Shown here: in pieces, positions 5,082 to 47,500 of the stretch
Layout of the letters: every line of letters starts with the position of its first letter
Position numbering within the stretch: position 1 is the stretch's first letter
Assembly: GCA_003220225.1 (NCBI GenBank)
Contig: QHRU01000041.1
Location: 1-64,000, forward strand
DNA length: 64,000 nt
Reading direction: 5' to 3'
Source: Candidatus Rokuibacteriota bacterium
Lineage (GTDB): Bacteria > Methylomirabilota > Methylomirabilia > Rokubacteriales > CSP1-6
Made by a program: the position numbers and the translations under genes
The notes under the pieces: model-generated
The model's database searches: none
Told to the model about the DNA's origin: nothing
The model's input: only the letters and a program-made list of their open reading frames with translations

Positions 5082-6593
5082 TCAGACGACGCGAAAGACC
5101 TCCACCTCGGCGGTCTTGCCCTTCACGCGCACGGCCGGCAGCGGCTCGAGCGCGACGCCGCCGTCGAGGCGCCGCGCGGTGGTGGCGCTCACGAGGATGT
5201 CGGCGCCGACCTCCTTGGTGAGGCCCTCGATGCGGGAGGCGAGGTTGACGGTGTCGCCGACGAGCGCGTACGAGAGCCGGTCGCGGCTGCCGATGGCGCC
5301 GGCGAGGACCGCGCCCGTGTGCACGCCGATGCCGTGGCTCAGCGGGCGCGCGCGCCCCGTGTTCCACGCCCGCAGCCGCGCGCGCATGTCGAGGGCGGCG
5401 CGCACGGCGCGCGCGGCGTGGTCGGGCGACGGCACCGGCGCCCCGAAGACGGCCTCGATCTCGTCGCCGATGAACTGCAGCACGAGGCCGCCGTGGGCGC
5501 GGATGGCTGCCTCCATCTCGGCGAAATAGGCGTTGAGGTCCCGCACGACCTGGCGGGGCTCGGTGGACTCGACCCACGGAGTGAAATCGCGGAGGTCCGC
5601 GAAGAGCATCGTCACCTCGCGCTGCTCGCCCTCGAAGCTGACGCGGCCGGCCAGGATCTCGTCGCGCACCTCACGCGTGACGTAGCGGCCGAACGCGTCC
5701 TTGATCGTCTCGCGCTCGCGCAGGCCGTCGAGCATGCGGTTGAAGCCCTCGGTGGCGGCGCCGATCTCGTCGTTGGAGACGACGGGGCAGTACGCGTCGA
5801 GATCGCCGCGCTCCACGCGCGCCATGGCGAAGGTGAGGCCGAGCAGCGGCGCGGCCACGCTGTCGGACACGACCCACGACAGCCGCACCGCCGCCACCAG
5901 GCCCGCCACGATGAAGAATCCGATGATGGCCAGCATCTCGCCGAGCATCATGCCGGCGTTCGCGGGATCGGCGGCGGCGAGCCGGCCGCGGCGCCAGGCG
6001 ACGAGGCCGAGCAGCGCCAGCGGGCCGACGCTCGTCAGCAAGAACACGACGAGGAGCCGCGCGCGCACGGGCAGGCGCGGCACGCCGCGCACCGAGCTGA
6101 GGTCGCCGGCCGGAAAGAGCTGCGGCAGCTCGTGCCGCCAGCGGTTCTCGATCGAGAAGAACACGATGGTCGCCGTGACCACGCCGCCGACGGCGGTGAT
6201 GCCGATCCCCGCTCGCACCGCCGACGGGAGCGTGAACGTGCCGGCGAGCAGCGGCCACACGACGCCCCAGACGACGCCCGCCATCACCCAACCGCCGAAC
6301 ACGACCGCCGCCATCGCCCACGGGAACATGAGCGCCCGCCGGCGCACCTCAGGCGCGGCGGGGTCGCCAGAGCCGATCGGCGCGGCCCAGCGCGACCCGA
6401 TTCGAACGCCGACGAGCGTGAGCCCGGTGAACGCCACGACGGAAAAGACAATCTCGGGCCAGGCGACCTCGGGACCGGCAGTCATGGGGTCGATGAAACG
6501 GAAATAGACGAATGCCATGACGGCGCCGAACAGGTTCGCGGCTCGCGTGCGCCGCACGATCGACCGGCGGCGCGCCGAGAGGGCATCCATCAC
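5082..6593 (-). CDS. Membrane-bound class III adenylate/guanylate cyclase
   Basis: This 503-residue protein has several hydrophobic segments in residues about 20-240, then a HAMP-like stretch (VERGDLDAYCPVVSNDEIG) and a C-terminal class III cyclase domain (about 300-500). Metal-binding aspartates lie in MLFADLRDFTPW and IGDEIEAVFGAP, and the distal part includes YALVGDTVNLASRIEGLT. Such proteins make cAMP or cGMP in response to membrane or periplasmic cues. The residue before the second metal site is Gln (VLQFIGD), where adenylate cyclases usually have Lys, so nucleotide specificity is uncertain. It is followed by an 80-nt gap and then murB. Confidence 0.88.
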   Translation of the reverse strand: MMDALSARRRSIVRRTRAANLFGAVMAFVYFRFIDPMTAGPEVAWPEIVFSVVAFTGLTLVGVRIGSRWAAPIGSGDPAAPEVRRRALMFPWAMAAVVFGGWVMAGVVWGVVWPLLAGTFTLPSAVRAGIGITAVGGVVTATIVFFSIENRWRHELPQLFPAGDLSSVRGVPRLPVRARLLVVFLLTSVGPLALLGLVAWRRGRLAAADPANAGMMLGEMLAIIGFFIVAGLVAAVRLSWVVSDSVAAPLLGLTFAMARVERGDLDAYCPVVSNDEIGAATEGFNRMLDGLRERETIKDAFGRYVTREVRDEILAGRVSFEGEQREVTMLFADLRDFTPWVESTEPRQVVRDLNAYFAEMEAAIRAHGGLVLQFIGDEIEAVFGAPVPSPDHAARAVRAALDMRARLRAWNTGRARPLSHGIGVHTGAVLAGAIGSRDRLSYALVGDTVNLASRIEGLTKEVGADILVSATTARRLDGGVALEPLPAVRVKGKTAEVEVFRVV

Positions 6594-16237: not shown

Positions 16238-17305
16238 ATGAAAACGAGACTCGGGATCATCGGGGCGGGCGCGATCGGCTGCGTGGTGGGCGGGCTGCTG
16301 ACGAAGGCGGGGCACGACGTCACCCTCATCGACCAGTGGCCCGAGCACGTGGAGACGATGCGCCGCCGCGGGCTCCGGCTGACCGGCACCTGTGGCGACC
16401 ACACCATCGCCGTGAAGGCGCTCCATCTGCACGAGGCGCAGTCGATCGCGGAGCCGTTCGACCTCCTCTTCGTCGCCGTGAAGTCGTACGACACGGAGTG
16501 GGCCACGCGGCTCGGCGTGCAATATCTGAAAGACGACGGCCTCGTGGTCGATTTTCAGAACGGGATCAACGACCACCGGGTGGCGGCGGTCGCCGGCGCG
16601 CACCGCACGCTCGGCTGCGTGATCACCATCGGCGCCGGCATGTACGAGCCGGGCGTGGCGATGCGCACCGATTCGGGGCGGCTCGGCTTCAAGGTGGGCG
16701 AGCACGACGGCCGCGACACGGAGCGCGCGCGACGGATCGCCGAGCTGCTCACCGCCGTCGCGGGCGCGAAGGTCACGACGAACCTCTGGGGCGAGCGCTG
16801 GTCGAAGCTCGCCGTCAACTGCATGCTGAATCCGCTCGCGGGGCTCAGCGGGCTCGGCACCGCCGAGTGCCGGACCGAGCCGGGGCCGCGGCGCATCGCC
16901 GTCCACCTGGGCGCCGAGGTCGTCCGCGTCGGCCGCGCCTGCGGCTTCGAGGTCGAGCCGACCTTCGGCATCGCGGCCCAGCGGTTCGTCGACGCCGCCG
17001 AGGGCCGTGGGCTCGAGGCGGTCGAGGCCGAGATGGTGCGCGACGCGACGTCGCGCGCCGGTGGCCGGCCGTCGATGCTCCAGGACGTCATGCGCGGACG
17101 GCGCACCGAGATCGATCACCTGAACGGCTTCGTCGTCGGTGAAGGCCGGCGCGTCGGCGTCAAGACGCCGTTCAACGAGAAGGTCGTGGACCTCTACCGC
17201 GCGCGCGGCGCGCGCTTCGTCCCCGACCCGGGCCAGCTCAAGCCGCTGCTGGAGATGCTGCCGTCCCCCCAGGGGGGGCACCCCCAGGGAGGGCCAAGGA
17301 CATGA
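16238..17305 (+). CDS. 2-dehydropantoate 2-reductase family protein
   Basis: The 355-residue product has an N-terminal Rossmann fold (LGIIGAGAIGCVVGGLLTKAGHDV), the family motif VAVKSYDTEWA, and the C-terminal ketopantoate-reductase helical domain with NLWGERWSKLAVNC, SMLQDVMRGRRTEIDHLNGFV and VKTPFNEKVVDL. It probably reduces a 2-oxo acid with NADPH; true pantothenate synthesis is not proven because its neighbours are a selenoprotein AhpD and an LLM oxidoreductase. The last residues (PQGGHPQGGPRT) come from a short GC repeat shared with the next gene's end. Confidence 0.85.
   Translation: MKTRLGIIGAGAIGCVVGGLLTKAGHDVTLIDQWPEHVETMRRRGLRLTGTCGDHTIAVKALHLHEAQSIAEPFDLLFVAVKSYDTEWATRLGVQYLKDDGLVVDFQNGINDHRVAAVAGAHRTLGCVITIGAGMYEPGVAMRTDSGRLGFKVGEHDGRDTERARRIAELLTAVAGAKVTTNLWGERWSKLAVNCMLNPLAGLSGLGTAECRTEPGPRRIAVHLGAEVVRVGRACGFEVEPTFGIAAQRFVDAAEGRGLEAVEAEMVRDATSRAGGRPSMLQDVMRGRRTEIDHLNGFVVGEGRRVGVKTPFNEKVVDLYRARGARFVPDPGQLKPLLEMLPSPQGGHPQGGPRT
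17266..17280 (+). repeat. 15-bp junction repeat, copy 1
   Basis: The 15-mer cccccagggggggca encodes PQGGH at the end of the reductase and is followed by a related CCCCCAGGGAGGG that provides a ribosome-site-like sequence for the ATG at 17302. An identical copy lies at the next gene junction (17826-17840). Confidence 0.7.
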
Positions 17306-46465: not shown

Positions 46466-46576
46466 ATGACGCTCCGGTCCCACCTGATCACCCTCGTCGT
46501 GGTGGCCGTCCCGCTGAGGGTCAGACCCGGGCCGGCTCCGCCCGCATCTCGCCGAAGACGCGCGAGGCCACGATGA
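46466..46576 (+). pseudogene. N-terminal stub of a sensor histidine kinase
   Basis: The frame opens MTLRSHLITLVVVAVPL, the typical start of membrane histidine kinases (first transmembrane helix), then at about codon 18 turns into unrelated Arg/Pro-rich sequence that is antisense to the CMD gene, and stops at 46576. This looks like a deletion junction. Two receiver-only response regulators remain 1.2 kb downstream. Confidence 0.45.
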
Positions 46577-46922
46577 GGGCGTCGCGCGCGAACGGCGCGC
46601 CGACGTAGCCGGTGAGCTGGATCAGCGCCTCCGTCAGCTCCTCTTCCGTCCAGCCCTGCCGCAGCGCCATGCGGAGATGGATGGCCAGCTCGGGCTCGCG
46701 TCCCGTCGCCGCGTCGGAGACGACGCACACCAGCGTGCGCGTCTTGAGGTCGAGGCCGGGGCGCGTCCACAGCATGCCGAAGATCGCCTCCGTCGCCACG
46801 TCGATGAACTTGCCCATGACGGGATCGGCGTAGACCGTCTTCGTCGAGCGGTCGACGAACGCGTCGCCCAGCAGCCGCCGCCGCATCTCCGCGCCCTTCC
46901 GGTACGTTTCGCTGTCCTTCAT
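46521..46922 (-). CDS. Carboxymuconolactone decarboxylase-family protein (no CxxC)
   Basis: The 133-residue product has the CMD fold pattern: FIDVATEAIFGMLWTRPGLDLKTRTLVCVVSDAATGREPELAIHLRMALRQGWTEEELTEALIQL and a C-terminal YVGAPFARDALIVA. It lacks the redox CxxC, so a decarboxylase/isomerase-like or binding role is more likely than peroxidase. ATG 46922 has an AAAGAGAGG ribosome site. It is divergent from the peroxiredoxin selenoprotein with a 113-nt gap. Confidence 0.83.
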   Translation of the reverse strand: MKDSETYRKGAEMRRRLLGDAFVDRSTKTVYADPVMGKFIDVATEAIFGMLWTRPGLDLKTRTLVCVVSDAATGREPELAIHLRMALRQGWTEEELTEALIQLTGYVGAPFARDALIVASRVFGEMRAEPARV

Positions 46923-47021
46923 CGGGGGCCTCTCTTTCCGCAGTGCGGCCATTCGGATTTCGCGGGGCTGGGGCCCCGCCGTCCGAGGCGAGCCTATGAA
47001 CGAGCCGAGAGACACGCAGGA

Positions 47022-47035: not shown

Positions 47036-47500
47036 ATGACGGGCCTGCGCTTCGGCCAACCCGCGCCAGAGTTCTCGCTGCCGGCCGGCACGGGCGGCGA
47101 GGTGCGCCTGGCGGACTTTCGCGGCCGCGACGTGGTGCTCATCTTCTACTGCTTCGACTGGGGCAGCATCTGAACGCCCGAGCTGAGCGACCTCGTCGAG
47201 GTCGCCGAGCGCGCGCGCGAGCGCGGCGCTGCCGTGCTCGCGATCAGCGGCGACAGCCCCGCCTGTCACGCGGCCTTCGCGGCGGCGCGGAAATTCCCGT
47301 TCCCGCTGCTGAGCGACCTCCACCGGAGCGTCATCGACGCGTACGGCGTGCTCGACGCGGACCGCAACGTCGCCTGGCGCTCGACGTTCGTGATCGACCG
47401 CGACGGCGTCCTGCGCTGGGGCCAGGCCGGCGACCGCCAGATGGTGCGCGACGGCGCCGAGATCCTGCGCGTCCTCGAGCTGATCGGCCGTCTGCGCTGA
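47036..47500 (+). CDS. Peroxiredoxin selenoprotein (UGA = Sec at the peroxidatic position)
   Basis: The frame encodes 154 residues with an in-frame TGA at codon 46 (47171-47173). It begins MTGLRFGQPAPEFSLP and has DVVLIFYCFDWGSI-U-TPELSDLVEVAERARE, then AVLAISGDSPACHAAFAAARKFPFPLLSD and TFVIDRDGVLRW. The TGA falls exactly where AhpE/BCP-type peroxiredoxins have the peroxidatic Cys (motif xxCxxEL). Sequence after the TGA is intact, and a hairpin lies just downstream. Cys77 could be the resolving residue. Role: peroxide reduction in the cytoplasm. The alternative, a nonsense mutation, is unlikely given the position. Confidence 0.88.
47187..47205 (+). promoter_or_regulatory. Candidate bacterial SECIS element (peroxiredoxin gene)
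   Basis: Starting 13 nt after the UGA, GCGACCTC pairs perfectly with GAGGTCGC (8 bp) around the loop GTC. The loop centre is about 23 nt from the UGA, within the range known for bacterial SECIS elements, and G is the first loop base. The AhpD-like gene's loop also contains GTC. Confidence 0.65.

Follow-up and report, generated by a model that had tools for sequence, protein, structure and literature searches.

The locus at 47036-47500 raises two related questions: is a TGA codon that lies where peroxiredoxins carry their peroxidatic cysteine read as selenocysteine (Sec), and what kind of active site would this produce? It lies in a stretch of 64,000 nucleotides from a Candidatus Rokuibacteriota genome, called here the window. 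A first-pass annotation of the window had proposed an AhpE/BCP-type peroxiredoxin with Sec at the catalytic position, in a frame that stays intact before and after the TGA. The frame is as described: in the window translation the TGA is in phase with both the initial ATG and the terminal TGA (Table 1), and with Sec at the internal TGA the read-through product has 154 residues, MTGLRF...FYCFDWGSI-U-TPELSDL... The Pfam domain AhpC-TSA (AhpC/TSA) covers residues 7-128 (E 2e-37) and spans the TGA, and when the protein is aligned to solved structures, Sec46 lines up with the peroxidatic Cys of human Prx2 and of M. tuberculosis AhpE. A model predicted by AlphaFold2 from the window protein and 14 relatives (pLDDT 89.7) was submitted to two structure comparisons, and in each of them the best 50 solved structures all belong to the peroxiredoxin family, with Foldseek matches down to E 2.2e-16 and VIA matches up to Z 24.6 (rmsd 1.3 for 151 residues). 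Domain and predicted fold thus place the protein in the peroxiredoxin superfamily. The peroxidatic Cys of peroxiredoxins sits at the start of a helix, and helix 46-62 of the model starts at Sec46. The conserved distant arginine of peroxiredoxins is also found, as Arg115 in 35/35 orthologs, and by alignment it would be the catalytic or activating Arg.

Table 1. Features of the locus, in window coordinates; the roles given are predictions.
Feature	Position	Strand	Remarks
Sec-containing peroxiredoxin-fold protein (predicted)	47036..47500	+	154 aa, ATG start, TGA stop 47498-47500
Invariant Cys39 codon	47150..47152	+	replaces Pro of Pxxx(T/S)xxC; 35/35 orthologs
Invariant Gly43 codon	47162..47164	+	replaces Thr/Ser of Pxxx(T/S)xxC; 35/35 orthologs
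TGA very probably read as selenocysteine 46	47171..47173	+	peroxidatic Cys position; TGA in 35/35 distinct orthologs
SECIS-like hairpin	47187..47205	+	8-bp stem, 3-nt loop 47195-47197, first loop base G
Cys77 codon	47264..47266	+	possible accessory thiol; Cys in 26/35, Ser in 9/35

We found full-length orthologs in 35 of 95 genomes of the phylum Methylomirabilota (61-99% identity), with one TGA each, and all 35 proteins are distinct. Hence, a conserved in-frame TGA at a redox position, by which bacterial selenoproteins are recognised, is present in every one of them. The first-pass annotation had judged a random nonsense mutation very unlikely, and this agreement bears it out, as do the rates of evolution. 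In 34 comparisons with the window gene Ka/Ks ranges from 0.123 to 0.693 downstream of the TGA and from 0.072 to 0.699 upstream, and such similarity on both sides is what translation beyond the TGA would give. Is there a version of the gene with a cysteine codon? A degenerate DNA pattern allowing any TGN at the site, built from the orthologs and thus liable to miss a diverged Cys form, retrieved 36 loci in the 95 genomes, all of them with TGA; the reversed control pattern gave 0 matches. These loci are the 35 full-length orthologs and a frame-broken copy in one further genome (G091), in which the TGA region is intact. Among the matches listed, those free of stops show at most 41% identity over most of their length, except for short pieces in G088, G091 and G073. 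Since the piece in G088, which corresponds to the C-terminal part only, follows a run of N, we make no pseudogene call. Within the family-level clade of the window, 36 of 57 genomes have the motif around the TGA, CxxxGxxU, versus 0 of the 38 others of the phylum.

Beyond this genome set, a scan of contigs yielded 16 relatives, a number to be read in the light of the exact 8-residue stretches that were required, which give low sensitivity for spread outside the phylum. Ten come from named records of Candidatus Rokubacteria (in GTDB a part of Methylomirabilota) that encode the protein at 67-91% identity with TGA at the codon in all, and the six others have at most 44% identity. The ten records repeat ten of the 35 orthologs in the compared stretch and are therefore not extra cases. 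Two Streptomyces relatives (41-44% identity) have TGC at the Sec codon. A single search pattern gave no relative in viral contigs, and the 30 plasmid records matched are all below 60% identity.

The TGA is followed by a hairpin whose loop lies 21 nt downstream (Table 1). The bSECIS rules, as PMC13188914 gives them, are a loop of 3-9 nt, an upper stem of 4-16 bp, a G in the first two loop bases, a spacing of 16-37 nt and an MFE of -7.5 or lower. All 35 orthologs satisfy these rules, with MFE of -7.7 to -12.8 and the same 21-nt spacing. The first loop base is G, and where the top pair opens (3/35) the loop has 5 nt with G as base 2. Unconstrained RNAalifold on the 63 nt from the TGA on, with 35 distinct sequences, returns one hairpin only, of 7 pairs (columns 18-24/28-34), and an eighth stem pair forms in 25/35. 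In the eight-pair stem 95.4% of cells pair versus 88.3% in shuffles (0/500 as high), 18 cells are changed on both sides versus 6.8 (0/500) and the covariation score is 0.255 versus 0.154 (0/500). The pairs changed on both sides (3 versus 2.0, 94/500) and the further pair types (7 versus 6.9, 361/500) do not exceed the shuffles. When the register is slid, only 24-45% of cells pair. The pair adjoining the loop is G-C in 19 sequences, C-G in 13 and unpaired in 3, and on its 5' side stands the wobble position of a Leu codon. Taken singly, the window sequence has no more stable a fold than its shuffles (z -0.47), and the tree shows few stem changes, 5 or more at one base and 4 or more at the other, with a sign test that lacks power.

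Such a reading requires a genome with the Sec machinery, and the reservation of the first-pass annotation on this point can be lifted. In the window genome (G000), contig C5 holds in one place the genes for tRNA-Sec (69.7 bits, cut-off 47), SelA (585 bits, cut-off 268) and SelB (372 bits, cut-off 242), while SelD is encoded on C159 (335 bits, cut-off 125), so that all four exceed their family cut-offs. The SelD gene (L099, G000:C159:12780-13730) itself holds one in-frame TGA. Across the 95 genomes SelA is above cut-off in 83, SelB in 84 and tRNA-Sec, searched with stricter filters, in 79. Of the 36 motif-bearing genomes, six have tRNA-Sec below cut-off (G038, G052, G055, G076, G077 and G087), four gave no SelA (G052, G076, G077 and G087) and three gave no SelB (G076, G077 and G087). 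These last three thus show no SelA, no SelB and no tRNA-Sec above cut-off. G087 is rated 100% complete, and G076 and G077 are rated 77% and 81%; SelA, SelB and tRNA-Sec are all present in G086, which belongs to the genus of G087. Since the machinery genes cluster in the window genome, we take the absence in the three genomes to be perhaps a binning gap. At least two TGA-containing peroxiredoxin-like matches occur in G087 beyond the ortholog. Since the TGA is conserved, a SECIS-like hairpin follows it and the genome encodes the Sec machinery, the gene at 47036-47500 very probably reads its TGA as selenocysteine at the peroxidatic centre.

The surroundings of this residue are unusual for a peroxiredoxin. 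All Prxs are said to contain a 'definitive motif', Pxxx(T/S)xxC, together with a conserved distant Arg, and the motif Pro and Thr/Ser are described as activating peroxide and helping to break its bond (PMC5302317). Sec peroxiredoxins are likewise described as PxxxTxxU in PMC13188914, whereas the motif here is CxxxGxxU, with Cys39, Gly43 and Sec46 each in 35/35 orthologs. Neither form of the motif, with C or with U, occurs in any of the 35: the catalytic position alone is kept. The label 'AhpE/BCP-type' therefore stands for the fold and for the position of Sec, but not for the motif, where Pro and Thr/Ser are both replaced. In peroxiredoxins the motif Pro is packed close to the catalytic residue, and here Cys39 takes its place.

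In the tree the CxxxGxxU clade has support of 100/99 and a stem of length 1.06. We compared it with 8 Cys and 17 Sec forms, which are hand-picked top matches and outside relatives, not all homologs. Pro (-7) and Thr/Ser (-3) are both kept in 8/8 of these Cys forms (read by eye), and among the Sec forms Pro is kept in 10/17 and Thr/Ser in 15/17. These counts leave out L069 and L090 (UxxC type), L074_20 (TlpA-like) and the distant L022-L024, of which L023 has Pro, Thr and Cys, and a Val occupies the site in L022 and L024. Six Sec peroxiredoxins (L074, L085, L086, L087, L089 and L091) are without the motif Pro, and L085 and L086 are also without the Thr. One protein outside the clade, L084 (G028:C314:1046-1447), reads FYCLDWTPGU, with Cys at the motif Pro position and Thr kept. 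It is perhaps an independent Pro-to-Cys change beside Sec; its long branch (0.85) makes its exact place in the tree unsure.

The window genome has six peroxiredoxin matches, and among those listed are Sec forms on C108 (PxxxTxxU) and C144 (UxxC) and a Cys form on C33. The protein on C144 (FYRGYWUPFC, L069) is a related Sec protein of the kind named 'Prx-like thiol:disulfide oxidoreductase' in Table 1 of PMC13188914; its Sec stands 3 residues before a Cys, whereas the window protein has a Cys 7 residues before Sec. The canonical Sec peroxiredoxins of the phylum, such as the paralog on C108 (FYPLDWTPGU, L068), share the TGA at the peroxidatic site and 36% identity, but they keep the motif Pro and Thr and form a separate clade. 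AhpE of M. tuberculosis (Rv2238c; PDB 1xvw, 4x0x), whose entry title describes it as a 1-Cys peroxiredoxin, resembles the window protein in length (~154 aa), in sequence (33-35% identity) and in fold (Z 24.1 over 150 residues), but has Cys for Sec and the standard motif in its aligned stretch, FFPLAFTGIC. PrxU (NF040737) belongs to the same peroxiredoxin family, and is presumably the family of the Eubacterium acidaminophilum Sec peroxiredoxin. The latter is ref. 83 of PMC13188914, a review that puts Sec at the peroxidatic position in such proteins. PrxU is the best NCBIfam match of the window protein (E 1.3e-19), yet at 70.9 bits against a cut-off of 270 the protein falls outside this equivalog, and no NCBIfam model is above its cut-off.

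How might such a centre work? SelB would deliver Sec-tRNA at the UGA, where the hairpin, with its loop 21 nt downstream, would direct it. In the predicted fold, Sec46 would then occupy the helix start where peroxiredoxins hold their peroxidatic Cys, and could attack peroxide or another oxidant to become a selenenic acid. Cys39, 7 residues upstream, would resolve it into a Cys39-Sec46 selenenylsulfide, which a thioredoxin-type reductant might reopen. A highly reactive selenol could do without the motif Thr and Pro; this agrees with the replacement of both in the clade and with the less strict motif seen in other Sec paralogs of the phylum. We favour the Cys39-Sec46 pair because Cys39 is invariant, because its place in the motif adjoins the catalytic residue and because L084 has a Cys at the same place. 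Judging from the alignment, Cys77 is a second candidate partner for Sec46, though it is absent in 9/35. That the protein is a peroxiredoxin-fold redox selenoprotein in which Cys39 would resolve Sec46, with putative peroxidase activity, has in our view about an even chance of being right. Since the motif Thr is replaced, the enzyme may not be a peroxidase. One might speculate, more tentatively, that Sec freed the active site, a view to which the less strict motif of the other Sec paralogs also points, and that the clade dropped two defining Prx residues and built a Cys39-x6-Sec46 centre whose chemistry may not be peroxide reduction.

Two other accounts of the same residues deserve attention. 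The protein could be an ordinary 1-Sec peroxidase, like AhpE, in which the selenenic acid is reduced by an outside thiol, of a small molecule or a protein, Cys39 has a structural role and the motif was able to drift as Sec needs less help. Fold and sequence are indeed closest to AhpE and Prx1/2, Arg115 is kept, and Pro has been replaced by Ile, Leu or Val in 6/17 of the other Sec paralogs, which suggests that the Pro position does not in itself call for a Cys. Nevertheless, Cys39 is invariant in 35/35 instead of drifting among residues, and we consider this account rather unlikely. More doubtful still is a Prx-fold thiol oxidoreductase that lost peroxide reduction, with Cys39/Sec46 exchanging with protein or small-molecule disulfides or with other electrophiles. 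The two residues to which PMC5302317 attributes peroxide activation are replaced in 35/35, and the long, well-supported stem of the clade would fit such a change of function, but Arg115, the other activating residue by alignment, is invariant and we see no conserved adjoining partner gene. Finally, it is highly improbable that Sec is not inserted at all: although SelA, SelB and tRNA-Sec are undetectable in 3/36 motif genomes, sequencing error and nonsense mutation are ruled out by the agreement of 35/35 orthologs on TGA, Ka/Ks is alike on its two sides, and general reassignment is ruled out by the 9/13 window genes checked, this one included, that TGA terminates, so that it is not a general sense codon.

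Sec peroxiredoxins are already published, and so is a Methylomirabilota genome rich in selenoproteins, 63 by prediction (Deng 2026, cited after PMC13188914); the CxxxGxxU active site would be the new part. A CxxxGxxU peroxiredoxin is absent from Table 1 of PMC13188914, a limited literature search found none, and the available part of the KSB1 paper PMC9012183 does not treat selenoproteins of Rokubacteria. With Sec and the fold retained but Cys and Gly in place of Pro and Thr, the clade, which spans at least 35 genomes, amounts to a natural experiment on whether selenium can replace the peroxide-activating apparatus. It also points to an annotation gap, as no NCBIfam model passes its cut-off for this protein. 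Under table 11 the largest piece of the frame at 47036-47500 is an 88-aa ORF, and such genes may be annotated as fragments.

In the window, the gene has no recognisable co-directional partner beside it: a divergent CMD-family gene (46521-47015) lies upstream and two response regulators follow from 47802. These neighbours are syntenic in the same genus only (L009/L026), and elsewhere have weak hits (29-44%) to large families. The neighbours of 8 of the 9 other named loci were compared and no conserved operon was found among them. L011, L012 and L017 have a common ATPase-like gene downstream and the remaining loci of the eight differ. At L074 (G038) the ortholog comes after two further redoxins on the same strand.

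The window contains other candidates for recoding. The first-pass annotation had counted the locus as a second selenoprotein within 30 kb, and this is supported by a CMD-family gene that starts at 17302 and whose TGA (17536-17538) is 29.6 kb away. The CMD/AhpD-like protein (17302-17844) reads CEY-U-TVH (CxxU) around this codon and is a second likely selenoprotein. Within the genus its closest match (89%) likewise carries a single TGA, and a relative in G069 (61%) has no internal stop and is thus probably a Cys form. Three more TGA codons, at 5084 (-), 18747 (+) and 34055 (-), have coding-like sequence in the same frame on either side; to judge by sequence, they may separate adjoining genes or mark further recoding.
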